Part shown: positions 1,681 to 27,121 of the stretch, piece after piece
Position numbering within the stretch: position 1 is the first letter of the stretch
How the letters are laid out: every line of letters begins with the position of its first letter
DNA from: Nitrospirota bacterium
GTDB lineage: Bacteria; Nitrospirota; Thermodesulfovibrionia; Thermodesulfovibrionales; Magnetobacteriaceae
Direction of reading: 5' to 3'
DNA length: 38,915 nt
Assembly (NCBI GenBank): GCA_015233015.1
Contig: JADFYO010000032.1
Span: 1-38,915 of the forward strand
Translations under genes and position numbers: made by a program
The notes under the pieces: model-generated
What the model saw: the letters and a program-made list of their open reading frames with translations, nothing else
Database searches by the model: none
Told to the model about the DNA's origin: nothing

Positions 1681-2868
1681 CTACTCCATCTTCATGGCAT
1701 CTATAATCTCTATCTTCGATGCCTTTCTTGCAGGCATATACCCGAAGGCCATACCAATCAGCAGTGAGGCCGCAAAGCTGATAACAATAGAATTTAATGG
1801 AATTATTGGTCTCCAATCTGCAAAAATGGATATAGCTAACGATATTATTATACCCAGTATGATACCAAGAATTCCTCCGATTGTAGAAAGTATTACGGCC
1901 TCGGACAGGAACTGCGTAACGATGTGTGAACGCTCAGCACCGCACGCCCTCCTTATGCCAATCTCCCTTTTCCTCTCCTTTACCGATACCAGCATAAGGT
2001 TCATAATGCCGATGCCACCCACTATTAGCGAAATGGAGGCCGTTGCCAACAGCACATTCGATGATGTCTTAGACTGTTCCTCCGCCTGTTTTATCAGCAT
2101 TTCCTGTGTCTCCACATTCACGGACAGTCCTAACCTTCTTACAAAATAATCCTGAATAGTTACTTTTGCCTTATCGGCAGAGAAACCTTCTTTTATCTTA
2201 GCCTTAAAGTTAGTCAGTTTCTTCGACTCAAACAGCAGCTCCGCCTGTCTTATCGGAATAAACACGCATTCGTTCAGGTTATCTGACGAGTTGAAGTATT
2301 TGTTCTTCTCATAGATACCTACCACAACAAACTTGCTTCGTTTTATGTTTATCGATTTGCCTGTTATTTTATCGGACACCTTGCCGAAGAGTTTCCCGGC
2401 GATGTCATAACCCAGGACACAATAGTTCTTTTCCATATCGAATTGCGTCAGTCGTCTGCCAAGTTTTATCGTTTGCTTATATAATATATCGAACTTGTCC
2501 GTAATGCCTGCTATGTTGGCATTCGATACCGTCCCCGAATGAGAAACGGTAGTGAAATTACTAATTCGCGGTGCCGACGTTAGTATAAATTTATTATCGG
2601 TGGACATTTTAACCACATCGCTTGCCTTGAGTATATCGGTGTCCAGGTACCTTCGCATAACCGTATTGCTTTGCTGCATCGAGCCTGTGATAACGTCAGT
2701 GCCTAAGGCCTTCAGTCCGGCAAGGGATTTTTCCTTCGCGCTTTCCCCAATGGAAAACATGCCTACGACAGAGGCAACTCCCACCAGAATCCCCAGCAGG
2801 GCTATGAATGTCTGAAACTTGCTTGCACTGAGACTTCTCAGCGCCTCTTTCAGCGTTAAGCTAAACAT
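1681..2868 (-). CDS. MacB-type ABC transporter permease (FtsX family)
   Basis: 395 residues with the MacB/FtsX layout: one membrane segment near the N-terminus (about residues 20-42, after SLTLKEALRSLSASKFQT), a large periplasmic domain (about 45-270), then three membrane segments (about 275-300, 325-350, 358-385). The motif KERKREIGIRRACGA before the third segment is typical. MacB-type proteins do not pump through the bilayer; they use cytoplasmic ATP hydrolysis to drive a periplasmic adaptor and TolC-type duct (mechanotransmission). It is the last gene of a four-gene operon, 11 bases after the ATPase gene. No strong ribosome site precedes its ATG, so coupling is likely. In many MacB proteins ATPase and permease are fused; here they are separate. 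Confidence 0.88.
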   Translation of the reverse strand: MFSLTLKEALRSLSASKFQTFIALLGILVGVASVVGMFSIGESAKEKSLAGLKALGTDVITGSMQQSNTVMRRYLDTDILKASDVVKMSTDNKFILTSAPRISNFTTVSHSGTVSNANIAGITDKFDILYKQTIKLGRRLTQFDMEKNYCVLGYDIAGKLFGKVSDKITGKSINIKRSKFVVVGIYEKNKYFNSSDNLNECVFIPIRQAELLFESKKLTNFKAKIKEGFSADKAKVTIQDYFVRRLGLSVNVETQEMLIKQAEEQSKTSSNVLLATASISLIVGGIGIMNLMLVSVKERKREIGIRRACGAERSHIVTQFLSEAVILSTIGGILGIILGIIISLAISIFADWRPIIPLNSIVISFAASLLIGMAFGYMPARKASKIEIIDAMKME

Positions 2869-2879
2869 CGCCGGCAGGG

Positions 2880-3560
2880 TTAATTCTTATAATCTTCAAT
2901 TATCAGGCCTTCGCTTATCTTTATCACTCTCTTTGCCATATTGGCGATATCCATATCATGTGTCACAAGTACTACGGTAATGCCCTTCAGAGCTACGAGG
3001 TCTTTTATTATGTTAAGTATCTCGTTGCGAGTTGCCGGGTCAAGCGCCCCCGTGGGTTCGTCTCCCAGTATTACAGACGGTTTTGATGCCAGCGTCCTTG
3101 CTATTGCTACGCGTTGCTGCTGTCCGCCTGAGAGGTGGCTGGGTTTATAGAGCATCCGGTCCTGTAGTCCGACCTGACACAATGCCCTGTATGCCTCTGT
3201 GCGTCTTGTGTTTAGTGGAATCTTTCTATAGACGAGCGGAAGCTCTACATTTTCTATTGCGTTGAGTTTTGTAAGCAGATTGTAGGACTGAAAGATAAAG
3301 CTTATCTCCTTATTTCTTATTGCCGAGATTTCTTTGTCCGACTTGTCCCCTATCAGCTGTCCTTTTATCTTATATTGCCCCGATGTCGGTTTGTCCAGAC
3401 ATCCGAGGATATTCATGAGCGTGGACTTGCCAGAACCCGACGGGCCTACGATTGCGGCAAACTCCCCTTGTCCTATCTCCAGATTTATATCTTTCAGGCC
3501 AAAGACTTGTCTGCCGTCGGGGCGCTTGAATATCTTATTTATTCCTGACAGCGCTATCAT
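2880..3560 (-). CDS. ABC transporter ATP-binding subunit (MacB/LolD type)
   Basis: 226 residues with all motifs of an intact ATPase: Walker A GPSGSGKST (about residues 39-47), Q-loop FIFQSYNLL, signature LSGGQQQR (about 143), Walker B VILGDEPTGALD and the H-loop in VLVTHDMD. The LSGGQQQRVAIARTLA and DEPTGALD wording is typical of the MacB/LolD/FtsE group. It powers the permease encoded immediately downstream. The ATG at 3560 lies 26 bases inside the 3' end of the adaptor gene, with GAGG and AGGGA upstream, so the genes are translationally coupled. Confidence 0.92.
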   Translation of the reverse strand: MIALSGINKIFKRPDGRQVFGLKDINLEIGQGEFAAIVGPSGSGKSTLMNILGCLDKPTSGQYKIKGQLIGDKSDKEISAIRNKEISFIFQSYNLLTKLNAIENVELPLVYRKIPLNTRRTEAYRALCQVGLQDRMLYKPSHLSGGQQQRVAIARTLASKPSVILGDEPTGALDPATRNEILNIIKDLVALKGITVVLVTHDMDIANMAKRVIKISEGLIIEDYKN

Positions 3561-5463
3561 CGAGTTTCCCTGCCTCTTCGATAAGTTTATTTTTGTCCAG
3601 TTTGCTTAGTGTTTCCTCTATTTCGGAGGTCAATACTACAGTCCCTTCAGGAAGTGTGGAATCCAGCAGCTCAAGCGACCTCGGATTAGTCAGTCCCGGC
3701 CTGATGAATGCCAATTTGATTGTTTTCCTGTTATCGAGATATAAGACGCAAGGTCTGCCATCTAAATCGAACATGGCCTGAATTGGAATGGATAGGGCAT
3801 TTGGCTTTTCACTTATTATGACCGAGGCATTTGCAGATAATCCAAATTTTATAACCTTGTCTATTTCGTCATTGTTGATTATCTGAATCTTTGCCTCAAA
3901 TACCGAGGAGTTTTCCTTGATTGTGGCCACGGCGGCTATCTCTTTCAATATCCCTTCAATCTTCATATCTTTCAACATCTCTGTGGTGATTAAGACCTTC
4001 ATGCCTTCCTGCAGTCTGCGAACCTGGGACTCGGCTATCTCGATTTTTATTCCTATATTTTTATAATCCCCGATATATACCACTATCGCGTCTGAGTTAA
4101 TCGATTGGCCGATGGCATAGACCACCTTGCCGGAGTTCGACACGGGGACGGTTACGATACCGCTGATAGGGGACTTAAGCTCTCCGGCGCTGTAAATCTT
4201 TTCTGCATCTTCGAGCGCTTTTTTAGCCTTATTCAGCGCCAGTGAAACGAGTTTTTGGGATGTAACAAAGGCTATCTCCACCTGTTTGAGTTTGAAGGCA
4301 TAGTTATCGGCTTGTGTAAGCGCGTTTTCATAATCAACCTCGGCACGCTCCAGCTCGGCCTTCGAAAGGATGCCCTTATCCACGAGACGCTGCGCCTTCT
4401 GTTTTCTCTGCATTGTCCTGTTGAGATTGTTTTTGGACTCTAACAGGCTTTTCGATATTTCGTTGTACTCGGTTGACGTTTCCAGTGTTTCATATTTCCT
4501 GAAGTTGGCCTCTGCCGTAATATAATCCGACCTTGTCTGCTGTAACTGCTGATATGCGTTACTGCTGTCTATTTTAAAAAGCGTCTGCCCCTCTTTGACG
4601 TGGTCTCCGTCTTTGAATCCTATAGAGACGATCTTTCCAGAAAGGGGATTTACTACCGGTACGGGGTCAAGAAAGTTAATTATTCCCGGGAAACCCATCG
4701 TATCCTGAAAGTCTGTTCTGCTTATCTGAGCAGTGGCGTACTGTTGAGCAGTTTTTACGTGAGATTTCTTATAACCCCAGACACCGGATAGAATAACGGC
4801 TATAATTAAAGCTGCAAGACCAGCAAAAAAGACCGTCTTCGCATGTTTTAACCCCGAAATTTTGTCCATTATCGATCTTTTGTTCGGGACGAGCCTTAAC
4901 ATCTCCTCTTCGGTAACATAATTGTCATCGAGCAGACCGCCAGGCAAGTGTTTTTTATGTTTATTCAGCTTATAGTATATCACGGGCTTGGCTTGTGCTT
5001 TGTCATTGTCAGAAAATACTATCTTATAATCGGAAAATGACAATTCGCTGCCAAGCTCAACCTCCTCGGTGCATTCCTCGCCTGATTGCAATGTCCGGTC
5101 CGATAGATTAACGGGCGTCCTGCCAACGTAACTAACCAGGATTACACCCTCTTTGGAATAGTTTATTTCTAAAAGAGCCCTCGAAATCTCAGGGGTTGTC
5201 AAATGGATCTCATTGCCCCTTGCGCGCCCCACCCTGAGCGTTGAAAGCACATACAGGGGATACAGCTTACTGAAGATGCCTTCCTTATAAAGCTTTACAT
5301 ATATTGGGTTAATGATAAGATTTGGAGCGCTTGTGCTGTCAGATAAATCGATACTGCCGTCGTCACAGTCGCAGAGAACCCGCTCTGCATCAGAAATGAA
5401 CATCGTTTTTTCTGAATCAAAATTTTCATCGCCAGTCACTTTATCGGAGATTTCCTTATCCAT
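3535..5463 (-). CDS. Membrane fusion protein with an N-terminal cytoplasmic FHA-like domain
   Basis: 642 residues, about 250 longer than a usual MacA-type adaptor. Residues 60-150 resemble a forkhead-associated (FHA) domain: LRVGRARGNEIHL carries the G79-R80 and N84 positions, S94-R95 follows in EISRALLEI, then RTPVN and a closing beta strand DYKIVF. FHA domains bind phosphothreonine. Residues 210-230 form one membrane segment. The periplasmic part has two lipoyl half-motifs (NPLSGKIVSIGFKDGDHVKEG and ELKSPISGIVTVP) flanking a long coiled coil (about 310-420), then beta-barrel and membrane-proximal domains. It should link the ABC permease to the TolC-like protein. The FHA part would lie in the cytoplasm. 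A possible phospho-acceptor, T20 in SEKTMFI, precedes it. The FHA call is by motif reading; the fusion is visible directly as one frame. Confidence 0.85.
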   Translation of the reverse strand: MDKEISDKVTGDENFDSEKTMFISDAERVLCDCDDGSIDLSDSTSAPNLIINPIYVKLYKEGIFSKLYPLYVLSTLRVGRARGNEIHLTTPEISRALLEINYSKEGVILVSYVGRTPVNLSDRTLQSGEECTEEVELGSELSFSDYKIVFSDNDKAQAKPVIYYKLNKHKKHLPGGLLDDNYVTEEEMLRLVPNKRSIMDKISGLKHAKTVFFAGLAALIIAVILSGVWGYKKSHVKTAQQYATAQISRTDFQDTMGFPGIINFLDPVPVVNPLSGKIVSIGFKDGDHVKEGQTLFKIDSSNAYQQLQQTRSDYITAEANFRKYETLETSTEYNEISKSLLESKNNLNRTMQRKQKAQRLVDKGILSKAELERAEVDYENALTQADNYAFKLKQVEIAFVTSQKLVSLALNKAKKALEDAEKIYSAGELKSPISGIVTVPVSNSGKVVYAIGQSINSDAIVVYIGDYKNIGIKIEIAESQVRRLQEGMKVLITTEMLKDMKIEGILKEIAAVATIKENSSVFEAKIQIINNDEIDKVIKFGLSANASVIISEKPNALSIPIQAMFDLDGRPCVLYLDNRKTIKLAFIRPGLTNPRSLELLDSTLPEGTVVLTSEIEETLSKLDKNKLIEEAGKLDDSAVRNK

Positions 5464-5477
5464 ACCTGCAATCCTCG

Positions 5478-7448
5478 TTAATTTTCCGAAGAGTCAGATG
5501 CAGTATCGGCCACAGCAGCATCATGAATCTTAATATTGAGAAATGACGACAGCACACCCTCGCTTTTTTTCAGGGCGATAACGGCATTCTGATAATCTAC
5601 CGTGGCCGACACATACGCCAACTGAGCAGAAACCAGATCGTTTTGATAGCTTATAACGGTAAACAATTCCGACAAGCCCTCCTCTAATTTTGCCTTCTCA
5701 GCGTCAAGTTTCAATTGATTCAGCTCCTGGGTTTTCTTTGCGACTTCAACCTTTTTCTTCGATGACAGTACGGCTATTATACCCTGCCGGATCTCTTTTT
5801 TCACGGATTCCTTCAATTTATCCATGTTAATATTTGCCTGGTCAAGGGCTATTTTACTTTTCAGATACGCGTTATTTCTTATTGTATTAGGGATTGGTAT
5901 CGTGTAATTCAACGAGGCCGTCCATGACCTTTCATCGGCGCCGTGTATGATAGACCTTCCAAGCCCTCCGGTATCCATCGAAGACCCCGTGCCGTAACCA
6001 AAATTAAGTGAAAGATTTGGCAGCGAGCTGTTTTTTGCAAGTTTTAAGTTGATTTCGCTGATCTTGAGACTCTCCAGAGCCTGAAGGTAGTCCGTCCGGT
6101 TTTCAAATGCCGCGTTTAAACTGTTTTGGTAGTCAGGGTCAATGTAATCGAACGTGGGTGGGTCCTCGGGCGATATGTTCTCGGATAAATCCCGGTTCAA
6201 AAGGTTTAACAAGGTATCCTGGGCGTCTCTGAAGGCCTTCACCGCATTTATGAGCGCATCCTCTCTGCTGGAAATCGCCGCCTCCGTCTGATACTTGTCC
6301 AGTACCGCAATCTCGCCTTCTTTTATAAGCTCCAGGGTCTTATTGTGAAGCCTTACTGCGTCGTTAAGGGCCTCCAGTTGTATCAGAAGCTGTTCTTTAG
6401 CGACTTTAAGATTCCAATACGCGGCGTTCACGCTGACAAACATAGTCTCTATCTGTTCTCTTAAGGCAATTCTTGAGTTCAACTCATTTATCTCCGCAAT
6501 TACTACCGGCGCCCAGTTTACAAAATATCCCGCTCCCGCAAGCAAAGGCATAGTTAATACCGTACCAAGAGTTGATTGATATTGTGTCGCCGCGTCCTGG
6601 GAAAGGTTTGCGGAAGTCGCATAGAGCACGCTTAGCGAGCCGCCCGTCAGAAGTGGCAGAGACAGGCCTGCCGGCGATAATGACATGCCGGATGTACGTG
6701 AAACTGGATTTCCAGATAGGGAAAATGCCTGTGTTAATGTCGGATAGAAGACGGCCTTTGCACTCGATATATCCAAACCGGCAGAGACGGGGGCTAGTTT
6801 TGCGCTTTTGATAGCTAAGTTCCTCTGCAAGGTCTCAAGAAATGTATCCCTCAGGGTGATTTTCTTTTCATCGCCTTTATTAAAAAAAACCGCGTTATAT
6901 TTTTCGCTGTACAGTATGCCGGAGAGCTGCTGCTCTATCGATTTATTGTTATCGTCTGCTTTCTTTTTATCCTCTGCCGGGGCTTTTGCCTCTGCCGGAG
7001 ACCGATTATCTTTCGCAGGGGGCGGCAAAGTCGTGACAGTCTTGTTGTCTCTGCCGAAGGCGTTTTTTGTGGTGTATAAATCGACCACGACACTATTTGG
7101 GTCTGAGAGTGTGGAGATATTATAACCGCCAAACATACTGCCAAGGTCAAAGACTATCCTGAGGGTTTGTTTGTCGAATCTTCCGGCCCTTACGGCGTTA
7201 ACTGTATTACTGTTAACCGGATATGTCTTTGTTGCGGAGGCAATAGTGGATTGTTCTATATCTATGTAAAGTCTCTCAGGGCTAGTGATGAAATGTTCGG
7301 CGAACTTCACGGGGCCGTCAAATTCGAGTTTGACAGCGGTATGTCCATTATCCGACTCGTGCGTGATATTTATAAGCGACGCCCCGGATGCCTTGTCTGC
7401 ACAATATAGGCAGCATACTATTAAAAGAATGTGTAGGATAATCTTCAT
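5478..7448 (-). CDS. TolC-family outer membrane channel with N-terminal AMIN domain
   Basis: About 656 residues from the ATG at 7448, chosen because it starts a clean signal peptide (MKIILHILLIVCCLYCADKASGA). An ATG at 7499 adds 17 residues but has no ribosome site. AGGAGG exists about 22 bases before the 7448 start, unusually far and separated by a T9 run. Residues about 10-100 resemble an AMIN domain (strands such as GHTAVKLEFDGPVKF and TLRIVFDLG), which binds peptidoglycan or targets envelope complexes. A charged Pro/Ala/Lys linker follows, then two outer-membrane-efflux halves with long helices (NAAYWNLKVAKEQLLIQLEAL and a second copy near the end). TolC-like trimers form the exit duct for the adaptor and ABC pair encoded downstream. 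It is the first gene of the operon, 14 bases before the adaptor gene. Confidence 0.88.
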   Translation of the reverse strand: MKIILHILLIVCCLYCADKASGASLINITHESDNGHTAVKLEFDGPVKFAEHFITSPERLYIDIEQSTIASATKTYPVNSNTVNAVRAGRFDKQTLRIVFDLGSMFGGYNISTLSDPNSVVVDLYTTKNAFGRDNKTVTTLPPPAKDNRSPAEAKAPAEDKKKADDNNKSIEQQLSGILYSEKYNAVFFNKGDEKKITLRDTFLETLQRNLAIKSAKLAPVSAGLDISSAKAVFYPTLTQAFSLSGNPVSRTSGMSLSPAGLSLPLLTGGSLSVLYATSANLSQDAATQYQSTLGTVLTMPLLAGAGYFVNWAPVVIAEINELNSRIALREQIETMFVSVNAAYWNLKVAKEQLLIQLEALNDAVRLHNKTLELIKEGEIAVLDKYQTEAAISSREDALINAVKAFRDAQDTLLNLLNRDLSENISPEDPPTFDYIDPDYQNSLNAAFENRTDYLQALESLKISEINLKLAKNSSLPNLSLNFGYGTGSSMDTGGLGRSIIHGADERSWTASLNYTIPIPNTIRNNAYLKSKIALDQANINMDKLKESVKKEIRQGIIAVLSSKKKVEVAKKTQELNQLKLDAEKAKLEEGLSELFTVISYQNDLVSAQLAYVSATVDYQNAVIALKKSEGVLSSFLNIKIHDAAVADTASDSSEN

Positions 7449-7571
7449 GATTTTATCGAAAAAAAAACACGTCCTCCTCGTCCTTAGAGAGATTATCATA
7501 TTTTTTTTAATCGTGTAAAGTTCCTATTTTTCCGATGTTGGATTTTGACAGCTATGAACATGTATTTTTTT

Positions 7572-7644: not shown

Positions 7645-8037
7645 GTGAAAGTGATTGTAAAGATGCTGGTATTTTTGATAGTAATCGCGGTGGCGTATCA
7701 GTTTGTTAACGCGGAGGTTCCTTTGAAAGGAGACTCTAAAACCATGTCTGGAAATGCCAAAAAAGGTGAAGAGGCATTTAACGACGTTAAATTTGCCGGA
7801 GGAAAGGCCGGTAAAAAATGCAGTGAGTGTCACGCTAAAGGGAAAGGCTTCGAGGGATTAGACAAACAGCAAAAGTATAAGGTATTAGATAAGGAATTCA
7901 GCTCTATCGAGGAGGCAGCGAATTTCTGTATTCAAACGTGGCTTCAGGGCATTCCGCTTGTGAAAGATTCTACCGAGATGAAAGACCTCGTAACCTATGT
8001 GAGGCTGGTGAGTTACAACAAGCAGCCCTCTCGATAA
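7645..8037 (+). CDS. Small secreted monoheme cytochrome c-like protein
   Basis: 130 residues starting with GTG at 7645, with AGGGAGG eight to fourteen bases upstream. Residues 1-23 form a signal peptide or anchor (VIVKMLVFLIVIAVAYQFVNA). One CXXCH heme-attachment motif, KKCSECHAKGKGFEG, lies near residue 60, preceded by KKGEEAFNDVKFAGGKAG, as in small class I cytochromes. A distal Met ligand is not obvious; the Met of STEMKDL is the only late candidate. It would act in the periplasm as an electron carrier. It stands alone between the exporter operon (divergent) and the large repeat protein, so its partner is unknown. Confidence 0.75.
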   Translation: MKVIVKMLVFLIVIAVAYQFVNAEVPLKGDSKTMSGNAKKGEEAFNDVKFAGGKAGKKCSECHAKGKGFEGLDKQQKYKVLDKEFSSIEEAANFCIQTWLQGIPLVKDSTEMKDLVTYVRLVSYNKQPSR

Positions 8038-8134: not shown

Positions 8135-8157
8135 AATAAAAAAGTGGAGGTATGTTT

Positions 8158-11154
8158 ATGGAAACGGCAGTCAAAAGATGTATGAATGCGTTGGGGGCAG
8201 TGTTAGTAATTCTCTGTACCATGTACGCGGGAGCGGCGTTTGGAGGGTCTGCGCCAGTGATAAGCCAGACGTCTCCGGTTGACAACCAGAAATATTCGGC
8301 ATCGACGAATTCTATTTCGCTTACAGGTAATGTAACGGACGATGTGGGGTTGAAAGAACTCACGCTGTCCACTGACAAGGGGTGGCAGAAGACGTATTCT
8401 ATAAGCGGGAAAAAAGTTGACCTGTCGGGATACGCATTCGATGTTAAAGATGTATCCGGTCAGGTGAAGCTCACAACACTGGTGACCAACACAGGCGGGC
8501 AGACTAAGACCCTTACAGTTACGTTAAGTATCGATACCGCTTCTTCACAAGGACCTCCGGAAATTGGCGATTCAGTCCAATCCGACGATATCACCGAAAA
8601 AAGTTCCAACATCAAAGCTAAGGTTCATCCGAGAGGCAATTCCACAACGGTGTACGTCATGTTTGGCGTCAGCCAGGGCAGCCTTGTAACTAAAAGTTCT
8701 CAGCAGACCATAACCGGCGACAGCGAGCAGTCGGTAACGATAAGCCTGACGGGGCTGTCTGCCGATACTACTTATTATTACAAGCTGTATGCGGAAAACA
8801 CTAAGGGTAAAAAAGAGTCCGACTCGAAAAGTTTCAAGACAGCAAAGTCTAAGGTCAGCGACCCGGTGATAAATTCATCATTCAGCGTAAGCGATGTAAC
8901 GTCTAGTTCGGCCAAAATAACGGGAAAGGTAAATCCTAATGGGACTTCGACTACGGTCTATGCGGCTTATGGCGTCAGCACCGGCAGTCTTACGTCACAG
9001 ACCACTCAGACCGTTATAACCGGCGGCGACGAAAAGGATATATCGATATCCCTGACGGGGCTGACCGCGGCAACCACATACTACTACAAGATAGTTGCGG
9101 ATAACGGTAAAACGAAGAAGGAATCTGCGGTTGACAATTTCAAGACAATAGCAGAGACGTGTTCTCAAACAGCACCTGTGGTCGGCTTATACAGCACTTC
9201 TGTGGATGAGAATTATTGTTATGTATATGCCAAAGTACAGCCAAAATGCTCAACGACTTCAACGTATGTACTATATGGAACCGCGCAGGGCAGCATGACG
9301 ACGAAGGTTTCAGGTTATCTGGGCAGTGCTGACCTGGACAAAGAGATATTTGGTTATTACTACATGACAGGACTTACCCCTGGCACTACTTACTACTATA
9401 AGGTAGTTGCGGTAAACGCAAAGGGTACTACAGAGTCTGCCGTGGGTACCTGCAAAACCCCTGAAAATACTTGCAGTAGCAGCAACACTGCGGCCCCTGC
9501 GGTCAGCTTATACAGCACCTCGGTGGATGAGAATTATTGTTATGTATATGCCAAAGTAAATCCAAAATGCTCATCGACAACATCCTATATACTATATGGA
9601 ACCGCTCAGGGCAGCATGACGACTAAGAATTCAGGTTATCTGGGCAGTTCTGACCTGGACAAAGAGACCTATGGTTATTACTACATGACGGGACTTAACC
9701 CTAACACTACTTACTACTATAAGGTAGTTGCGGTAAACGCAAAGGGTACTACAGAGTCTGCGGTTAGTACTTGTAAAACAAATGCCAGTCTTTGCCAGAC
9801 GGTACCGGCAGTCAGCGGTGTAACCACAGATTCGATAACGGACTCCTCCGCCACTGTCAAGGCTACAGTCAATGCAAAAGGCGGTACTGGCAATGCTTAT
9901 GTAATGTCTGGGACTAACCAGACCAGCCTGACGACAAAGAGTTCTCAGGTCCCTATATCCGGGACAAATGACTCAACCATCTCGATATCGCTAACGTCAC
10001 TTTCCGCAGATAATACTACTTATTTCAAGGTCGTTGCGGAAAATGAAAGAGGAAAGGCCGAATCCTCAGTTTATTCCATTAAGACAAAGGCAAAAGAAGC
10101 GGCAAAGGCCGCTCCAACGATAGCTGAGGATGTGGACACCAAAGATATAACCGATGCGTCGGCATCTATGACCTGCAAGGTTAATCCAAATGGCAATTCA
10201 ACTACAGTTTATGCCATGGTCGGGACAAGTTCGTCAAGTCTGACGCAGCAGGGTTCGCAGATACCACTATCGGGTACTGGACAACAGGGTGTATTGATTT
10301 CAGTCTATTATCTGACCCAGAATACTACATACTACTTCAAACTGGTAGCTGAAAGTTCTGGAGGAAAGGCAGAGACTAAGGTCTTCTCATTTAAGACAAC
10401 AGCAGTACATGTTTCAGTAAATCCAAGCACATTAGAGGTTAAAGTCGGCGCATCAGGCAACGTTACTGCCTCAGGCGGAACGGCTCCATACACCGCCGTT
10501 AGCAGCAACACCCAAATTGCAACAGCTCTCATGTCTCGCGATGACCTTGTTACCATTTCAGGTGTTGCAAGCGGCTCCGCAACCATCACTGTAAAAGACA
10601 GCAAAGGCGTCAGTACAACTGTCTCCGTTACTGTTCCAGCAGCTTCACCAACACCTACACCTAAGGCAACGGCTACTCCAACACCAACACCTACGCCTAC
10701 ACCTAAGGCAACGGCTACTCCAACACCAACACCTACGCCTACACCTAAGGCAACGGCTACTCCAACACCAACACCTACGCCTACACCTAAGGCAACGGCT
10801 ACACCAACTCCAACACCTACGCCTACACCTACTCCGACTGCATCGGCAAAACTCCCTCCGACTATTGCCGAGAATATAAAGTCACAAGATATAACCACTA
10901 CATCGGCAACTGTAACAGGGCAAGTAAATCCCAAGGACAGCTCAACAACCGTTTATGCCATGTACGGCACCAGCGACACGACTATGACATCGAAGACCTC
11001 GGTGACAACTCTAACCGGTATAAGCCAGCAGGACGTATCGTTTTCGTTAAAGCCGCTTTCTGCGGATACGACCTACTACTTCAAGTTAGTGGCTGAAAAT
11101 GCTGCCGGAAAGGTGGAGTCTAAAGTGTTTACACTGAAGACGTCGAAAAAATAG
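8158..11154 (+). CDS. Large secreted fibronectin type III-like repeat protein
   Basis: About 998 residues. The ATG at 8158 is preferred over 8152 because GGAGG (8146-8150) is seven bases from it and only one from 8152. A signal peptide (AVLVILCTMYAGAAFGG) is followed by an Ig-like domain (about 30-130), two fibronectin-like modules with the recurring L-T-x-x-T-T-Y-Y-Y-K-x-x-A-x-N pattern, two almost identical modules each with four cysteines, two more fibronectin-like modules, a BIG2-like bacterial Ig domain (about 745-825), a Pro/Thr linker of four 14-residue repeats, and a last fibronectin-like module. No membrane anchor, LPXTG or PEP-CTERM tail is visible. It is probably a cell-surface or extracellular adhesive or structural protein. 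Whether the neighbouring ABC exporter handles it is unknown, and the Sec signal argues for ordinary secretion. A strong terminator follows. Confidence 0.85.
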   Translation: METAVKRCMNALGAVLVILCTMYAGAAFGGSAPVISQTSPVDNQKYSASTNSISLTGNVTDDVGLKELTLSTDKGWQKTYSISGKKVDLSGYAFDVKDVSGQVKLTTLVTNTGGQTKTLTVTLSIDTASSQGPPEIGDSVQSDDITEKSSNIKAKVHPRGNSTTVYVMFGVSQGSLVTKSSQQTITGDSEQSVTISLTGLSADTTYYYKLYAENTKGKKESDSKSFKTAKSKVSDPVINSSFSVSDVTSSSAKITGKVNPNGTSTTVYAAYGVSTGSLTSQTTQTVITGGDEKDISISLTGLTAATTYYYKIVADNGKTKKESAVDNFKTIAETCSQTAPVVGLYSTSVDENYCYVYAKVQPKCSTTSTYVLYGTAQGSMTTKVSGYLGSADLDKEIFGYYYMTGLTPGTTYYYKVVAVNAKGTTESAVGTCKTPENTCSSSNTAAPAVSLYSTSVDENYCYVYAKVNPKCSSTTSYILYGTAQGSMTTKNSGYLGSSDLDKETYGYYYMTGLNPNTTYYYKVVAVNAKGTTESAVSTCKTNASLCQTVPAVSGVTTDSITDSSATVKATVNAKGGTGNAYVMSGTNQTSLTTKSSQVPISGTNDSTISISLTSLSADNTTYFKVVAENERGKAESSVYSIKTKAKEAAKAAPTIAEDVDTKDITDASASMTCKVNPNGNSTTVYAMVGTSSSSLTQQGSQIPLSGTGQQGVLISVYYLTQNTTYYFKLVAESSGGKAETKVFSFKTTAVHVSVNPSTLEVKVGASGNVTASGGTAPYTAVSSNTQIATALMSRDDLVTISGVASGSATITVKDSKGVSTTVSVTVPAASPTPTPKATATPTPTPTPTPKATATPTPTPTPTPKATATPTPTPTPTPKATATPTPTPTPTPTPTASAKLPPTIAENIKSQDITTTSATVTGQVNPKDSSTTVYAMYGTSDTTMTSKTSVTTLTGISQQDVSFSLKPLSADTTYYFKLVAENAAGKVESKVFTLKTSKK
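9185..9781 (+). repeat. Tandem duplication of a ~321-bp cysteine-containing module
   Basis: The DNA from about 9185 recurs from about 9506, an offset of 321 bases (107 codons), with long identical stretches such as GATGAGAATTATTGTTATGT. Each copy encodes a fibronectin-like module with four cysteines at matching places. The similarity is much higher than between other modules of the protein, so this duplication is recent. Confidence 0.85.
10660..10827 (+). repeat. Four 42-bp tandem repeats encoding a Pro/Thr linker
   Basis: Units start at 10660, 10702, 10744 and 10786. Each 42-base unit encodes PKATATPTPTPTPT. The first three are nearly identical and the fourth has a few changes. The length is a multiple of three, so copy-number change would keep the frame and alter only linker length. 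Such linkers are often glycosylated or span cell walls; that is inference. Confidence 0.9.
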
Positions 11155-14264: not shown

Positions 14265-15005
14265 TCACTGTTTTTCCGCCACCAGAAAATATCCAAGCGG
14301 AAATTGCTTACTCGTTCTTTCAGAGCATCTCCTGCCGAATGATGTACGGAGAAACAGGGCGGTCATCACCTGCATTGAGGTGGCAAGCCACTTTCCGAAC
14401 AGGGGAATGATATATACATGTTTGGCTATCAGGTCTGTAAGAATCTCAGGGGTACCGCCCAGTGATTTCAGGACTACCAACCTGAAGCCCGTTCTTTCGG
14501 CAAATCTCCTCAATGCAAACTCGGTGTACCGGTAATAATCATAGGGTGTTTCGTGCAGCCAGAAAAAAAAGGGGACATTGAGAAAAAGGTTTCCCCCGGG
14601 CTTCAGGATGCGCGACATTTCCTGCCACAGCAGCTCCGGCTGGGGAATATGTTCCAGCACATCGGATAGTATCAACGTATCAAACTCACCGTCCTCAAAC
14701 GGCAGAGGTTCCGTAAGATCGCACTCTTTATCGATGTATTCGGAGGTATTGAGTGAATTCCCCCAATCGACACATATTGTGTCGGTTACATATTCACGGT
14801 ATGCCTCGTATAAAGGCACCTTCCCACAGCCCAGGTCCAGCAGTCTGCCCCTGGCATACTTTGAAAGATACGCGTCATAAAGGGATGCTGTGAGATCCAC
14901 AAGGAGTCTGGTCCTGCTCCTCACTTCATTCTGGTCGCGTGAAGCCATGAGTTTGCCCTTTCTGTAAACATACTTGGTCGGCGCCCATTTGTCTTTATTT
15001 CTCAT
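14265..15005 (-). CDS. Class I SAM-dependent methyltransferase
   Basis: 246 residues with a typical Rossmann methyltransferase core: motif I LLDLGCGKVPLY, an acidic second-strand end (VDWGNSL), FDTLILSDVLEHIPQPE (post-motif) and ILKPGGNLFLNVPF. It lies within the polysaccharide operon between the ATP-grasp and TMTC-like genes, so a sugar or chain-end modification is likely. Chain-terminating methylation is known in some O-antigen systems, but nothing in the sequence defines the acceptor. Confidence 0.8.
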   Translation of the reverse strand: MRNKDKWAPTKYVYRKGKLMASRDQNEVRSRTRLLVDLTASLYDAYLSKYARGRLLDLGCGKVPLYEAYREYVTDTICVDWGNSLNTSEYIDKECDLTEPLPFEDGEFDTLILSDVLEHIPQPELLWQEMSRILKPGGNLFLNVPFFFWLHETPYDYYRYTEFALRRFAERTGFRLVVLKSLGGTPEILTDLIAKHVYIIPLFGKWLATSMQVMTALFLRTSFGRRCSERTSKQFPLGYFLVAEKQ

Positions 15006-15039
15006 GTCCTGCTCTCCTCTTGCACTTCATGATTTACAG

Positions 15040-15915
15040 TCAGACCGTCCACTGGTCGCCGAAAATTCTGTCATAATCAGGTGGATTAAATCTTTCAGTT
15101 CCACCTCCCGGATAAAATGTCGCTTCGCTGAATTTTATTTTCCCTTTAACGTTGTAAAGATCAATGCGAACGTACGAAAAATCTTTTCCTATGTCTTCTG
15201 CTATCCTCTTCATTTCAGAGAAATTATCAGGTTTCGCAACGGCCCTCAGATGTTTCGGGTAAGCGACATAGCATACATCCATAATATTGAAATCCTTGTC
15301 GTACATCTGAATCCTCGGCACGGTATCTCTGTCGACGAGTACCTGAAGGGCGAATGTTTTACCGCCAAAGACGTGAAATTTATATTCTGTAAGGTCATCA
15401 TCCCCGAATTTCACGTATTCTTCCACAAAGGCCTTTCTCTCTATCAGGGAATACGCCCATTCTTCTAAGACGGCTGAATGATCGAAAGCAAGATATCGTT
15501 TTAAGCGAGACTTTATCTCTTTTTCATTAAAGTTTTTGTCTTTGACAAAGATATTCATGTGACAGCTGTGATTTACTTTTATTACATATGGCGGGGGGAT
15601 GCTCTGCATATCAAAACCATCGACATCATCGATAACTTTCAGAGTTGGAATAATAATTTCTTTGCCAAACCGCGCCGCTATTTGTTCTTTAACAAGAATC
15701 TTGTCTACTAGTGGAACCATAGCCAGGTTTCTGTCATGAAGTTTTCGATAAGCGATTTTCTCACTAAACGTTTTAGGAGATTTTAGATTTGGCAGGCATC
15801 CGTGCGCTCTGTAGTGTATCATCATGACGTGGAGTTTTGCCGGCAGAATATTTTCGAATATAGAGAACGCCGGCTTCAGCACTGGTTTCAAAACCTTTTT
15901 TAATAATTCCTTCAT
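15040..15915 (-). CDS. TupA-type ATP-grasp protein
   Basis: About 291 residues from ATG 15915. The frame extends further upstream but there overlaps the glycosidase gene in low-quality sequence, so the internal start is preferred; a GTG six bases earlier is also possible. Family features are visible: LKSPKTFSEKIAYRKLHDRN, VPLVDKILVKEQIAARFG, an ATP-binding lysine in PPYVIKVNHS, ERKAFVEEYV, LTEYKFHVFGGK, and the C-terminal metal site FSYVRIDLYNV...FSEATFYPGGGTERF. ATP-grasp enzymes of the TupA group are linked to teichuronopeptide and polysaccharide biosynthesis and are thought to ligate carboxylates to amines. Here it probably adds an amino acid or amide decoration to the polysaccharide; that is inference. 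Confidence 0.8.
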   Translation of the reverse strand: MKELLKKVLKPVLKPAFSIFENILPAKLHVMMIHYRAHGCLPNLKSPKTFSEKIAYRKLHDRNLAMVPLVDKILVKEQIAARFGKEIIIPTLKVIDDVDGFDMQSIPPPYVIKVNHSCHMNIFVKDKNFNEKEIKSRLKRYLAFDHSAVLEEWAYSLIERKAFVEEYVKFGDDDLTEYKFHVFGGKTFALQVLVDRDTVPRIQMYDKDFNIMDVCYVAYPKHLRAVAKPDNFSEMKRIAEDIGKDFSYVRIDLYNVKGKIKFSEATFYPGGGTERFNPPDYDRIFGDQWTV

Positions 15916-15964
15916 AACCACCCGCTCATCTTTTAATTTCAGCAGCCTACGGCTGTTGGTACGG

Positions 15965-17098
15965 TTAACGATTCTCTGCCTTATCGAACGCCCCTGCAAT
16001 AGCGTTCCATGCCGGCTTGCGGTTAAAATTTTCGTCCAGCGGCAACGGCCTGACCGCGGCCTTGTCGTCACGCGGCATGTATTTTGACAGCCATGTGTAT
16101 TTATCGCTTAATCCCCATGTAAGAACTCCAATTACAGCCTTCTCTTGCAGCGCTGTACTCAGAAACTCCTCATATTTGTTTGCAACCAATTTGTCCCGCT
16201 TATTAATATTTTGTGAAAACATTATATCTGTCACATCCAGTTCGGTAATCATAATCTTAAGACCAAGTTCTGCCACATCCTTCAAAAAAGTTCTGAACAC
16301 TCCCGGACTGAAAATTTCCCCATCCATGCTAAGATGAGACTCTATGCCCAGGGCATGGACTGGCGTTGCGGATGCCTTCAGGCGTTTCAACAGCCTGAGC
16401 GTGGCGGCCCGGCTTTGTGCATCTATCTTAGTGTCATGCTCAAGGTGATCCTGGTTTAACACTAGTATGGCCTTTGGGTCTGCCGCCGCGGCCGCCTTAA
16501 AGGCTATGTCAATGTATTTCGGACCCAGCAGTTTATACCACGGTGAATTACGCATGCCATCAGACTGTTTATCTTTATCCCATGGTGCGATTGCTTCATT
16601 TACCACGTCCCATGAGTGCATTTTCCCGGCATAGTGCCCGGCTGCCGTGGTAATGTGATTTCGTAATACCTGTTCGGCGTTTTGGCTGTTGACAGTGGTC
16701 TCAAACCATTTTGGTAAGGCCTGATGCCACACCAGTGTGTGACCGCGCAACAGTATATTGTTCTTTTTAGCGAAATCAAGTATAAAATCGCCCTGAGTAA
16801 AATCAAACTTGTCAAGACTTGGGCGCAGCGCCTCCCATTTAAGCTCGTTTTCCGGCACGACTATTCCACATTCTCTCACAACGGAAGCCGCTAATTTTGT
16901 ATCCCTGGTCAGAGCACCGTAGTTGACGGCAGAACCGTAAATCAACCCTTTTCTGGCTGCGCGTTCACGCAAAGGGGCGTCTCCATTCGTTTGTCCCCAT
17001 GCGCATATTTGCCCAAACGATGTGCTCGCAATAGCCAGCGCCGCCGCATGTTTCAGAAACGAACGCCTTCCCATTATTGCCTCATCTTTTTCTGTCAT
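15965..17098 (-). CDS. Tat-exported GH10 family endo-xylanase-like glycoside hydrolase
   Basis: 377 residues from ATG 17098, chosen because AAAGGAGG lies just upstream (an ATG 15 bases earlier sits before that site). The N-terminus has a twin-arginine signal, GRRSFLKHAAALAIAS (RR at residues 11-12), so it is exported folded. GH10 features follow in order: GSAVNYGAL, NELKWEALRPS, LRGHTLVWH, the acid/base Glu168 in WDVVNEAIAPWD, LNQDHLEHD, GIESHLS, the nucleophile Glu286 in IMITELDVTD, and VLTWGLSDKYTWL. Family enzymes cut beta-1,4-xylan or related glucans with retention. Its gene overlaps the WecG-like gene by 17 bases deep inside the polysaccharide operon. A role trimming or releasing the cell's own polymer is more likely than plant-fibre digestion. 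Confidence 0.9.
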   Translation of the reverse strand: MTEKDEAIMGRRSFLKHAAALAIASTSFGQICAWGQTNGDAPLRERAARKGLIYGSAVNYGALTRDTKLAASVVRECGIVVPENELKWEALRPSLDKFDFTQGDFILDFAKKNNILLRGHTLVWHQALPKWFETTVNSQNAEQVLRNHITTAAGHYAGKMHSWDVVNEAIAPWDKDKQSDGMRNSPWYKLLGPKYIDIAFKAAAAADPKAILVLNQDHLEHDTKIDAQSRAATLRLLKRLKASATPVHALGIESHLSMDGEIFSPGVFRTFLKDVAELGLKIMITELDVTDIMFSQNINKRDKLVANKYEEFLSTALQEKAVIGVLTWGLSDKYTWLSKYMPRDDKAAVRPLPLDENFNRKPAWNAIAGAFDKAENR

Positions 17099-17861
17099 TA
17101 CGCCTCCTTTCAATATTAAAACCTAACAATCTCAACAGTAACCAGGGTTCGACAAGGTATCTCCGCCAAAGCCGCTGAGGTTCGCAACACAGCCGGTACA
17201 ATCCCTCGAGGCCTGCACGCCCCATCCAGCGTGGAGGCATAGGTATTTCCCCTGCAATATAATCAATATATGCACCGATGGTTATTATCACATTTGTGCG
17301 TAATGCCTTAATATTATCGGCAACCCATTGTTCCTGAATAGGCATTCCCATGCCTACAAATAAAATATGAGGACGATATTCATTGATTTTTTCAATGATA
17401 CGTTTATTACCGCCACTTTCATGGGCCACACCAAAATAACCATGGTGAGTATCAATCTGAAGTCCAGGGTATTTAGCCTTCAATATGTCGGCGCCTTTCT
17501 GTGCTACGCCATATTTGGAACCAAGATAAAAAATCCTCCAACCCTCTTGCGCGGCTCGTAAGAAAACTAATTGCAGCCAATCTAATGAGGTCATCCTGTT
17601 ATCTCTTTTGAGCGGGTGGCCTAAAATCTGTCCAATCCATACCAGTGGCATACCATCGATAAAAGTAACATCCGCCTTATCATAAAATGAGCGCATTTTT
17701 ATGTCCTTTTGACATAAATAAACGCTATGTACGTTATGATGAGCAATAATGCAGTGTGCATTATTGCCGATAGTGTTATGGATTATGTCGCATAAATCCT
17801 GTGCGACCAACTTATCGACACGAACTCCCAACGGTTTTATGTCTATTTTGGGATATTCCAT
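17082..17861 (-). CDS. WecG/TagA/CpsF family glycosyltransferase (GT26)
   Basis: 259 residues matching GT26 along the length: the early HCIIAHHNVHSVYLC block, ADVTFIDGMPLVWIG with the conserved Asp-Gly, the WRIFYLGSKYGVA and IDTHHGYF blocks, PHILFVGMGMPIQEQWV, and the basic C-terminal tail AGLEGLYRLCCEPQRLWRRYL that docks on the membrane. These enzymes add an N-acetyl-mannosaminuronic acid, ManNAc or similar sugar to a lipid-linked acceptor on the inner face of the cytoplasmic membrane. Its start is six bases after the preceding GT2 gene and its end overlaps the GH10 gene, so it belongs to the same operon. Confidence 0.9.
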   Translation of the reverse strand: MEYPKIDIKPLGVRVDKLVAQDLCDIIHNTIGNNAHCIIAHHNVHSVYLCQKDIKMRSFYDKADVTFIDGMPLVWIGQILGHPLKRDNRMTSLDWLQLVFLRAAQEGWRIFYLGSKYGVAQKGADILKAKYPGLQIDTHHGYFGVAHESGGNKRIIEKINEYRPHILFVGMGMPIQEQWVADNIKALRTNVIITIGAYIDYIAGEIPMPPRWMGRAGLEGLYRLCCEPQRLWRRYLVEPWLLLRLLGFNIERRRNDRKR

Positions 17862-17867
17862 GTCGGG

Positions 17868-18845
17868 CTAAACCATGTCCTTCCAGAGATTATGTGAAAA
17901 GCCGGCAAATATTCGGGGGTCAATGCCGTTGACGGCAATTTCCTTGCTGCCCAGTTCGTAAGTGAGCCGTTTAATGAAATGTCCCGGTGAGGTAAGCAGC
18001 GATTTGGCGGCATATGCGGAGGCCCTTATGTAGTCTTTGCCGCTGGCGTATATGTTTACCTTGCGGATATTCTCTCTGAACTGGAGGTGTTTCTTATCGA
18101 GTAATGCCGGTAAATGGTTTCTTACCTCATCGTCCGCTAACGGACTAAGCCCCCACAGGTGGGACAGCAGCAGGTATTGTACATATATGACGTCTATTGA
18201 CTGCTTCAGAAGACCTTTACTTGAGACAGTTGAAAAATTAAGGCGAAACCCTGTGGTAACTTCAGGTATGAAGATTATTTCACTATTCAATGCCAGCCGC
18301 CAAAACAAGTCAACATCCTCTACACCGCTTAAATTAAGGGTATATCCACCCGTATCGAGGACTTTTCTAACATTAAGCGTGACCGTTGACTGACAAATGG
18401 CCAATAAATAACCGGCTTTCGTGAGATTTCGTAAGACGGCCGGGGTTGCAATAGTAGTCCTGAACGTACCAACATTTTTACTGCCGTGGTATTTTGCCAT
18501 CGAATAAAACATCCCCGCGCCGGGATATTTCCGGATATACTCCATAACAAGACGAATTCGGTTTGGATAGGCTATATCGTCATGGTCAAGCAGTACAAGC
18601 CAGGGAGTGCGCGTCTCCTGCAATAACCGGTTTCTCGTAAAGATAATCCCCTTATTCTCCTGTCTTATCACACGCAGCCGGTTGTCTTTAACAGTTTTAA
18701 GGTATTGTGAACTCTCGTCCGTCGAGCCGTCATCAATTATAAGGATATTGAAATCATGGTAGTCCTGGGTGAGAAGGCTGCTAATCGTCTCCGGTAGAAA
18801 CGGCATGGCGTTGTACATGGGTATCCCAAGAGTCAACTCTGGCAT
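17868..18845 (-). CDS. Family 2 glycosyltransferase
   Basis: 325 residues from ATG 18845. The frame is open further upstream but overlaps another GT gene. The chosen start has AGGAG upstream and begins the GT-A fold directly: LTLGIPMYNAMPFLPETISSLLTQ, ILIIDDGSTDESS (nucleotide-sugar binding), PWLVLLDHDDIAYPNR (metal-binding D-x-D at residues 87-90) and, further on, the acceptor-side SGVEDVDLFWRL. It extends the lipid-linked oligosaccharide unit in the cytoplasm. Its ATG lies one base after the stop of the next GT2 gene. Donor and acceptor cannot be read from the sequence. Confidence 0.88.
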   Translation of the reverse strand: MPELTLGIPMYNAMPFLPETISSLLTQDYHDFNILIIDDGSTDESSQYLKTVKDNRLRVIRQENKGIIFTRNRLLQETRTPWLVLLDHDDIAYPNRIRLVMEYIRKYPGAGMFYSMAKYHGSKNVGTFRTTIATPAVLRNLTKAGYLLAICQSTVTLNVRKVLDTGGYTLNLSGVEDVDLFWRLALNSEIIFIPEVTTGFRLNFSTVSSKGLLKQSIDVIYVQYLLLSHLWGLSPLADDEVRNHLPALLDKKHLQFRENIRKVNIYASGKDYIRASAYAAKSLLTSPGHFIKRLTYELGSKEIAVNGIDPRIFAGFSHNLWKDMV

Positions 18846-18846
18846 T

Positions 18847-19785
18847 TCAATGTATCTCCTTGTTTTTTTTGAAAAAGTTACGTATCTTATGCCGCGCGTC
18901 CATTGGGATAAACCACATCCCCATAAATAGTAAAAGATCAAAAGACCTCGGTACTCCGAATTTAAAGAGTTCACGAAGCAACGGCACAAAGGCCTCCCAT
19001 TGTCCCTGCTGCGCCGCCTGAGCCGAAAGGTCTGTAGCCACATACCCCGCATAGGCCTTCGTGGTAAACAGATTACGGTTTTCCCTGAGCCAATGCAGAA
19101 AATACTTCCAATCGTACTGCGAGCTGACAGCTTTTCTCTGCTGTTCGGCATAGTAAATATATAAAGGCTCCGGCACAAATTGAAAGCTCACTCCCTCGAC
19201 CTGTGCCGCCCGCAATGCCCAATCGAATTCCTGGTATTTCTTCATGCCGCTGCGAAATGGTACCCTTTCTAATAATAATTTTTTTATAAGCAGCGACGAT
19301 GTTATCAACTTTGTATCGCCCTGGTAAAAAGAGTTTCTGACACACAAATATTCGCTTATCTGTTCTGAGGGTTGTGGAAATCTTTTGGGCCAGGTGAGAT
19401 CCCCCCCCGGCGTCCGGACAATACTAAGGCAGGACATCACAGGGAAAGGGTTATGTAAATTGACCGCAAGATTAATTTGCTTCATGAGTTTTTCAGGCAG
19501 CCATTCATCGTCATCATCCAAAAAGGCGACCCAGTCATACCTTGCCGCCCTGACGCCGGCATTTCGGGCATCGGAGCCGCCAACATTCTCAGGCAGCGGC
19601 AGAATTCTTACCCGTGGGTCGGTTATCTGCCCAAGTGCGTCCTCCGTAGCCTCATCCGGTCCGTCTATGACCACGATAACTTCTAACTCTTTAAAAGTTT
19701 GTGCCAGCGCGCTCTCAACTGCCTTGCAAACAAGATTCGGCCTGTTGCGTGTGGGAATTACTACACTGATTTGTTCGCTTATCAT
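18847..19785 (-). CDS. Family 2 glycosyltransferase
   Basis: 312 residues. The GT-A motifs are clear: SVVIPTRNRPNLVCKAVESAL, VIVVIDGP, GGSDARNAG and WVAFLDDDDEWLPEKL (metal-binding aspartates at residues 90-93), then an acceptor region around KYQEFDWALR. It starts with an ATGA overlap with the end of the Wzy/ligase-like gene and stops one base before the next GT2 start, so it is translationally linked to both. Expected to add one sugar of the repeat unit. Specificity is unknown. Confidence 0.88.
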   Translation of the reverse strand: MISEQISVVIPTRNRPNLVCKAVESALAQTFKELEVIVVIDGPDEATEDALGQITDPRVRILPLPENVGGSDARNAGVRAARYDWVAFLDDDDEWLPEKLMKQINLAVNLHNPFPVMSCLSIVRTPGGDLTWPKRFPQPSEQISEYLCVRNSFYQGDTKLITSSLLIKKLLLERVPFRSGMKKYQEFDWALRAAQVEGVSFQFVPEPLYIYYAEQQRKAVSSQYDWKYFLHWLRENRNLFTTKAYAGYVATDLSAQAAQQGQWEAFVPLLRELFKFGVPRSFDLLLFMGMWFIPMDARHKIRNFFKKNKEIH

Positions 19786-21071
19786 AAAGTTCTCCTCACG
19801 GACTGCCTGTTATTCGTGTAATATAAAGAAATCGTTATGGAAACGAAAACGATCCAAAGCAGGCCTCCTCCAAAAACAAGGTTATTTTCTGTAATATTAT
19901 CAAGGAATAATAAAGTCACAAAGACAAAAGGCCAGATAGACTTGTTGGACGCGGACAAATATAAATTCCTGAAGGCAAGGCGTGCTGTCCGGAAATATCC
20001 AAAGAAAAATATAAAGAACCCCACTAACCCTAAATTAATGCCAATCTCCAAAAAACCGTTATGCGAATGAGGAATTGCCCATTTACAAAGATCTCTGACA
20101 ACATTGCCGCCGCTGTCTCCCCCCAACCAGAAACCTCCGTAACCATAACCGAGAAGCGGGCGTCTTTCAAGCATGCCAAGAGTGCCTTTCCATAAGCAGT
20201 CTCGTCCGGTCAACGTGGCATCCTTTCCCATTAAATTCAAAAAAGAGTCTAATTTTAAAAGCAGCAGCGTACTTACAACAGAAATTACTATTATCGCCGA
20301 ACAGTATGAAATAATCCTTATATAGATATGATTATGAAAAGTCTTATAAAAAGGAATTAAACATATAACGATAAGCATTATTAATGTTGCCCCTCCCGAC
20401 TTTGAAAGTATTGATAAACAAAAAGACAACATTATTATCCCCCATTTAATAATACGGTGTTTCAGTTCCCTTACATTCAGCAGTAAAAAAACTATCAGGC
20501 AGAAGTTGGAATATAACCCTAATGAATTTTTGTGACCAAATACACCACGCCATGCACCGGGATGGTTCTCACCATAAGGATGCCATTGCATAATGCCATA
20601 CTTAGGTAACAGCACTGCGGTAATCACACTAAAAATGGCGATAATCCCCAATGTTATTGCCATGAGTTTATGTTGTTCTTCCGATGTAAAACGCATTACC
20701 ATATACAAACCAAACAGAGTAAGTCCTGTAAATTCGATGCTTTCTCTCAAAGTAACAAGGGGAAATTGCGACCACAACGCTGATAATAGCGAAAGCGTTA
20801 TCAAAGATATGAAAAACTTCTCTTTCCATAACAATACAAACGCGCCGCTTGTATTCCTTATCATAAGATAAATGGCTATCAGATAGAAGGGATAAGAAGT
20901 AATCACCAGTAACGGATGCGCTTGGCCGGCTTCGAAATTAAGTTGAGCCTCACTCTCATAAAGACGAGTGATGGCACTGGTGCTAAACAGCATCGCCGTT
21001 ACGGCAAACCCCTTTTCCAGATTTCCCGGACGTATGTCTGTATCGTCATTATTAATCATAGCTGCCGTCAT
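19782..21071 (-). CDS. Wzy/O-antigen ligase-type membrane protein
   Basis: 429 residues with about ten membrane segments. The large periplasmic loop carries the Wzy_C signature GRDCLWKGTLGMLERRPLLGYGYGGFW followed by KWAIPHSHNGFLEIGINLGLVG, where the Arg and His residues are those used by polymerases and ligases. An upstream block, YGENHPGAWRGVFGHKNSLG, is also typical. Such proteins either polymerise lipid-linked repeat units (Wzy) or ligate them to an acceptor (WaaL). Next to a Wzx-type flippase and Wzz-like gene, polymerase is the better guess. It overlaps both neighbours by four bases. Confidence 0.85.
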   Translation of the reverse strand: MTAAMINNDDTDIRPGNLEKGFAVTAMLFSTSAITRLYESEAQLNFEAGQAHPLLVITSYPFYLIAIYLMIRNTSGAFVLLWKEKFFISLITLSLLSALWSQFPLVTLRESIEFTGLTLFGLYMVMRFTSEEQHKLMAITLGIIAIFSVITAVLLPKYGIMQWHPYGENHPGAWRGVFGHKNSLGLYSNFCLIVFLLLNVRELKHRIIKWGIIMLSFCLSILSKSGGATLIMLIVICLIPFYKTFHNHIYIRIISYCSAIIVISVVSTLLLLKLDSFLNLMGKDATLTGRDCLWKGTLGMLERRPLLGYGYGGFWLGGDSGGNVVRDLCKWAIPHSHNGFLEIGINLGLVGFFIFFFGYFRTARLAFRNLYLSASNKSIWPFVFVTLLFLDNITENNLVFGGGLLWIVFVSITISLYYTNNRQSVRRTL

Positions 21072-22222: not shown

Positions 22223-22228
22223 ATTTAA

Positions 22229-24789: not shown

Positions 24790-24807
24790 AAAATACCTCC
24801 CTTCCCT

Positions 24808-25551: not shown

Positions 25552-25590
25552 TTTCTCCCACCCCTGATATTATATTATATCTTAAATCTT

Positions 25591-27102: not shown

Positions 27103-27121
27103 AAATCCTCACAATGGTCTG

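Follow-up and report, generated by a model that had tools for sequence, protein, structure and literature searches.

Regulation of tripartite efflux pumps is understood to act mainly at the level of transcription. In the MacAB-TolC pump, the adaptor MacA has only a short cytoplasmic N-terminus. Control by Ser/Thr kinases and FHA domains is known for type VI secretion systems (T6SS). The FHA-like cytosolic domains of the type III secretion (T3SS) proteins YscD, PscD, and PrgH are described as structural modules without phosphothreonine-binding residues. MacA lacking its cytoplasmic region or its transmembrane helix is compromised in the stimulation of the MacB ATPase, and how these short elements exert the stimulation is unexplained (PMC5985334). 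The ABC exporter Rv1747 is regulated via its FHA domains (PMC5549992).

Here we analyse a stretch of DNA from a bacterium of the phylum Nitrospirota (contig JADFYO010000032.1, 38,915 nucleotides, hereafter the window), which encodes an exporter adaptor with an FHA-like domain in front of its membrane helix. To our knowledge, no adaptor carrying an FHA, PAS, or GAF domain has been described, and a survey of open-access full text and field reviews found no description of any of these domains joined to a HlyD-type adaptor. The novelty that the original prediction had claimed for an efflux adaptor of this build is in agreement with the survey.

Reading frame and operon of the fused adaptor

The 642-residue frame proposed in the original prediction, which gave no strand, is complete and runs on the minus strand from position 5463 to 3535 (Table 1). 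The plus strand was ruled out as the coding strand, because its frame is interrupted by stops throughout. The residues named in the prediction are present: the motif SEKTMFI starts at residue 17 and contains T20, and G79-R80, N84, S94-R95, and V118-N119 follow. The membrane segment predicted at residues 210-230 corresponds to one hydrophobic segment starting at about residue 207-212, in which the mean Kyte-Doolittle (KD) hydropathy reaches up to 2.5, whereas all other windows of the profile stay at or below 1.25. No signal peptide was found at the N-terminus of the adaptor. Since the segment at about residues 207-230 is the only hydrophobic one and none precedes it, residues 1-206 should be cytosolic.

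The rest of the protein had been described as a complete MacA/HlyD-type adaptor, and HlyD/RND profiles exceed their curated cut-offs over residues ~245-617: PF16576 with 44 bits (cut-off 30; E 1.6e-11), PF13437 with 38 bits (cut-off 22; E 3.7e-9), and TIGR01730 with 107 bits (cut-off 95). Its nearest relatives among solved adaptors are the MacA structures, with E. coli MacA reaching 4.4e-10 in phmmer. The score against the MacA equivalog PRK11578 is 53.5 bits, below the cut-off of 342. Judged by its sequence, the adaptor is a relative of MacA and not MacA proper.

The fusion could be apparent if the true start were near the transmembrane helix and the upstream frame untranslated, or if the contig contained a join error, and the join is confirmed by no orthologue. 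Several features argue against such an artefact. A GAGG sequence lies 9 nt before the ATG of the adaptor gene, which itself follows the stop codon of the gene for the outer-membrane factor (OMP) by 14 bases. The GC content by codon position is 0.48/0.33/0.50 in residues 1-206 and 0.49/0.33/0.51 in the remainder, so the codon signal continues unbroken through the N-terminal part. These features make a start after the FHA domain unlikely. Furthermore, the predicted fold of the N-terminal domain fits an expressed domain, and the operon is continuous on one contig. An artefact is thus very improbable, and the fused frame is very probably what is translated.

The adaptor gene belongs to a four-gene operon on the minus strand, unbroken on one contig, which encodes the OMP, the adaptor, an ABC ATPase, and a MacB-type permease, in this order. 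The start of the ATPase gene overlaps the end of the adaptor gene by 26 bases. A MacAB-TolC-type set, consisting of a permease with MacB_PCD and FtsX domains, an ABC ATPase, an adaptor, and an OEP outer-membrane factor, is therefore present together, and the assignment of the adaptor to an ABC exporter stands.

The window contains further genes outside the operon. Divergent from it, at 8152-11154 on the plus strand, is a gene for a secreted protein of 1000 residues, in which FN3-like domains are repeated and a low-complexity TPTPTPTPKATA repeat occurs, and a cytochrome c-like gene (7645-8037) is located between the two. A protein combining an adenylate/guanylate cyclase domain, an NB-ARC-like ATPase, and TPR repeats (27999-30698, minus strand) is encoded next to a cluster for polysaccharide synthesis and export at about 14265-27976. 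A 780-residue protein in the glycan cluster (31928-34270, minus strand) has no Pfam match.

Table 1 Features of the fused adaptor, its operon, and the sister adaptors. Positions refer to the window or to the locus named.
Feature	Sequence	Positions	Strand	Basis
FHA-TM-HlyD adaptor, 642 aa	window	3535..5463	minus	reading frame, Pfam/NCBIfam profiles, hydropathy, codon composition
Adaptor N-terminal tail, residues 1-54, T20 in SEKTMFISD	window	5302..5463	minus	candidate phosphorylation site or FHA ligand
FHA domain, about residues 53-155	window	4999..5307	minus	own-genome FHA HMM, predicted models, structure matches
Cytosolic linker, residues 156-206	window	4846..4998	minus	sequence, hydropathy
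Single transmembrane helix, about residues 207-230	window	4774..4845	minus	hydropathy
Periplasmic HlyD/RND-type adaptor part (lipoyl, hairpin, barrel, membrane-proximal), about residues 245-617	window	3613..4731	minus	profiles
Outer-membrane TolC-type factor (OMP), 673 aa; signal peptide, AMIN (residues 45-119), two OEP repeats	window	5478..7499	minus	
ABC ATPase, 226 aa, LolD/MacB-NBD type	window	2880..3560	minus	profiles
MacB/FtsX-type permease, 395 aa, MacB_PCD + FtsX	window	1681..2868	minus	profiles
GAF-fused HlyD-type adaptor	G146/L087	4001-6025		GAF E 1.9e-13, above Pfam cut-off
GAF-type adaptor	G318/L088	2108-4129		93% identical to G146/L087 protein
PAS-fused HlyD-type adaptor	G099/L089	3638-5398		PAS E 3.7e-11, above Pfam cut-off

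Fold and phosphate-site residues of the N-terminal domain

The N-terminal domain scores below the Pfam cut-offs both for FHA (PF00498, 12.4 bits vs 20.7, E 0.22) and for Yop-YscD_cpl (PF16697, 14.7 bits vs 33.2), which is its best, still sub-threshold, Pfam match with an E-value of 0.037. A hidden Markov model (HMM) built on nine FHA domains of the adaptor's own genome matched the adaptor with 11.2 bits (p 1.6e-5), and the best of 2000 shuffled sequences reached 8.2. AlphaFold2 run without an alignment on residues 45-165 returned an all-beta model of low confidence (pLDDT 50). The best 28 Foldseek matches of this single-sequence model in the PDB were all FHA domains, and the 50 matches listed by another structure aligner were all FHA or FHA-like. 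When 23 FHA domains from the taxonomic order served as an alignment, residues 52-160 were modelled with a pLDDT of 87.9 and a pTM of 0.78. This model matched FHA structures with TM scores of up to 0.80 and Foldseek E-values down to 1.1e-5, and solved FHA domains with Z scores of 12-15 (15.1 to 3gqs, 98 residues, 2.1 Å). It was built on remote FHA domains, and its fold match is partly circular, because the alignment itself consists of FHA domains, whereas the match of the single-sequence model is not. The FHA beta-sandwich was thus obtained with and without an alignment, as anticipated for the FHA-like N-terminus by the original prediction. According to the models, the domain is a diverged FHA member by fold, not by curated profile.

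The phosphothreonine site of FHA domains comprises the residues G-R, S-x-x-H, and N, which are G69, R70, S85, H88, and N107 in Rad53. The adaptor domain keeps G79, R80, N84, S94, and R95. The histidine of the SxxH motif is replaced by L97, and the asparagine of the NG motif by G114 or P117, depending on the alignment. Among 24 aligned FHA domains, the sole invariant columns are those of G79, R80, and S94, which the adaptor domain keeps at an identity of 11-19%. Because of the replaced histidine and asparagine, phosphopeptide binding by the adaptor domain may be weak or lost.

The loss of these two residues also favours the main rival to a phospho-dependent input, in which the FHA fold is a phospho-independent scaffold like that of YscD and PrgH. 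As a plain protein-binding or ring-building module below the membrane, it would anchor the ATPase or a partner from the cytosol at the base of the pump. The best Pfam match being Yop-YscD_cpl, the presence of PrgH (4g2s) and PscD (6uid) among the structure matches, and the FHA-TM-periplasm topology common to the adaptor and the T3SS proteins point in the same direction. However, canonical FHA structures outscore those of T3SS for the aligned model, the phosphate-binding positions R80, S94, and R95 are kept in a domain that has otherwise strongly diverged, and kinases and FHA domains are abundant in the genome. We consider a scaffold conceivable but rather unlikely.

The FHA domains of DgcB from Bdellovibrio, GarA, and OdhI bind their own phosphorylated N-terminal tails, and the phosphorylated site in the tail of DgcB has a hydrophobic residue at position +3 (PMC6733907). 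In the adaptor tail, T20 is located upstream of the FHA domain, with an acidic lead and the hydrophobic I23 at +3. A family of two-FHA proteins from the same order has the linker motif D[EA]ThhI/V/L in 12/12 members examined, and one member (L002) is encoded in the genome from which the window originates. A general tail motif ahead of FHA domains was not seen across the order, and conservation was confined to the two-FHA family. T20 is a candidate cis ligand of the FHA domain, and the analysis gives this idea better grounds than were available when it was first raised.

The two-FHA proteins (L002, L100-L117) are about 240 residues long and consist of a canonical FHA domain, a linker in which the motif D[EA]T[IMV]hh is invariant, and a second FHA-like domain, in which K replaces the R of GR and the SxxH motif is missing. 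They are likely to function as an FHA/phosphothreonine relay, possibly a self-binding one.

The original prediction pointed to a Ser/Thr kinase as a possible controller of the pump. The genome (3.78 Mb, 99% complete) provides candidates, with 14 PF00069 matches in about 12-13 genes, and no Ser/Thr kinase was found in the operon or the scanned open reading frames of the window. Besides the adaptor domain, the genome has nine FHA matches above the threshold, some of them in kinase-FHA and PP2C-FHA proteins. Within the order, FHA domains are concentrated in the taxonomic family of the bacterium (4-14 matches per genome in a sample of seven genomes), and most of the other families have none. In one protein of the genome (L006), an FHA domain is fused to a PP2C-type phosphatase and a C-terminal part resembling a cyclase.

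Related adaptors with PAS and GAF domains

The FHA version of the adaptor is a singleton, found in one genome in the data searched. No FHA-TM-HlyD orthologue was detected in 84,980 species genomes (exact-peptide patterns), in viral contigs, in plasmids (54 records, where, among the matches listed, similarity begins only from residue 227 on), or in 396 genomes of the phylum. A chimeric FHA-TM-HlyD profile identified no second such protein in 176 genomes of the order, and the fused adaptor is absent from the congeners searched. Phyla beyond Nitrospirota were covered by exact peptides and plasmids only.

A search for kin among 149 relatives, 396 genomes across the phylum, and the complete set of 176 from the order identified three relatives in which the adaptor has a long cytosolic N-terminus. 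These are the sole similar adaptors in the 176 genomes and contain a GAF domain in two genomes and a PAS domain in one. In each of them, the sensor domain is followed by a coiled-coil-like linker and then by the transmembrane helix. The order OMP-adaptor-ATPase-permease is the same wherever the contig is readable, and the OMPs of these operons have no AMIN domain. Directly upstream of one GAF-adaptor operon are genes for small secreted proteins with KGPGPDMKGK-like repeats (L087, 211-1134 and 1903-2358), which are possibly cargo.

In a tree of 46 adaptor rows, the four fused adaptors (FHA, PAS, and GAF) form one side of a branch with support of 97/95, and the support was 100/97 after removal of the other long-branch rows. 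A position of the FHA adaptor among the plain adaptors of its own family was rejected (AU p 0.0008). The exact kinship of the FHA adaptor is to be held loosely, because its row is itself a long branch. The best full-length match of the OMP from the window is in the PAS operon (178 bits, the next one 132), as is that of the permease (213 bits, the next one 205). A tree of the ATPases, used as a second witness for the sensor clade, left the grouping unresolved (support 44). Homology of the linkers of the FHA adaptor and the PAS and GAF adaptors, proposed by eye from a D-Y-TEE pattern, was dropped, since about 290 of 5000 shuffled sequences gave higher scores. The simplest account of the sequences is one exporter clade, in which the adaptor carries an exchangeable cytosolic sensor.

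Residues 14-168 of the OMP (155 residues comprising the signal peptide and the AMIN domain) share 56% identity with the N-terminal part of a secretin-like (AMIN-secretin) protein from a congener (L130, 1-2004), and the closest match of the TolC body is the OMP of the PAS operon. The N-terminus of the OMP is an apparent domain graft. Two adjacent genes, for the OMP and the adaptor, thus both carry N-terminal modules that look lineage-specific, which is consistent with an exporter that was acquired elsewhere and adapted by domain grafting, and we infer such a history.

The grafted OMP also fits a scenario in which recombination within the lineage fused the FHA domain to the adaptor as a neutral passenger without a role in export, as does the restriction of the FHA version to one genome, with congeners that have no fused adaptor. 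A passenger is improbable, because the frame is intact, the codon bias normal, and the core residues and fold are kept. Moreover, this position is occupied by other sensor domains in the sister adaptors, a pattern suggestive of selection for a sensor.

Proposed control of export and comparison with known systems

Based on the domain structure of the adaptor, its operon, and its relatives, a mechanism of control can be proposed, to which we give about an even chance. The kept G79, R80, and S94, the position of T20 relative to I23, and the motif of the two-FHA family speak for it, and the replaced histidine and asparagine speak against it. The cytosolic N-terminus of the adaptor from a MacAB-TolC-like tripartite ABC exporter would have been turned into a signal-input module, in which the FHA domain reads phosphothreonine. 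According to the stoichiometry of MacA, up to six FHA domains would be located below the membrane, next to the ABC ATPases. They would bind phosphothreonine in a partner phosphorylated by a Ser/Thr kinase of the cell or in the tail of the adaptor itself, near T20. The state of the FHA domains would be passed via the transmembrane helix and alter the assembly of the adaptor or its stimulation of the ATPase. Export could then be toggled on and off, with no new transcription needed. Phospho-dependent control of the exporter is plausible but unproven, and a Ser/Thr kinase may be in control.

Slightly less probable is the wider proposal that the adaptors of a whole clade of tripartite ABC exporters are transmembrane signal receivers with exchangeable FHA, PAS, or GAF domains, and that export is gated post-translationally by phosphorylation, ligand, or redox state rather than by transcription. 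The presence of these domains at exactly the cytoplasmic spot of MacA implies that an adaptor is able to relay cytosolic information to the pump, and suggests that the cell may control the pump from inside via the cytosolic domain of the adaptor. The clade of sensor-bearing adaptors makes the question of how MacA stimulates its ATPase testable. If the proposal is true, control by Ser/Thr kinases and FHA domains, as in T6SS and Rv1747, extends to MacAB-type export.

The exporter resembles MacAB-TolC in the single N-terminal transmembrane helix and the lipoyl, hairpin, and barrel domains of its adaptor, and in the combination of a MacB-type permease (MacB_PCD and FtsX) with a TolC-type OMP in one operon. 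It differs in the ~206 cytosolic residues of the adaptor, including the FHA domain, and in having the ATPase and permease as separate proteins. The PAS and GAF adaptors (L089; L087 and L088) share with it the operon order, the adaptor clade, and the sensor placed before the transmembrane helix, whereas their sensors are of the PAS or GAF type, followed by a coiled-coil-like linker, and their OMPs lack AMIN. In Mycobacterium tuberculosis, the FHA-FHA-ABC exporter Rv1747 likewise has FHA domains in the cytosol that are linked to signalling by Ser/Thr kinases (PMC5549992). However, these are part of the ABC protein itself, in another type of transporter without an adaptor or OMP.

DgcB, GarA, and OdhI have a threonine with a hydrophobic residue at +3 in the tail ahead of the FHA domain (PMC6733907), comparable to T20 and I23, and the FHA domain of DgcB is among the top structure matches of the adaptor domain (Z 14.1). 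They are soluble enzymes or regulators, whereas tail binding is putative for the adaptor, and the peptide-contacting asparagine, N97 in DgcB, is not kept. The T3SS proteins YscD, PscD, and PrgH also have an FHA-like cytosolic domain, one transmembrane helix, and a periplasmic part that belongs to a trans-envelope machine, but this periplasmic part is unrelated to that of the adaptor.
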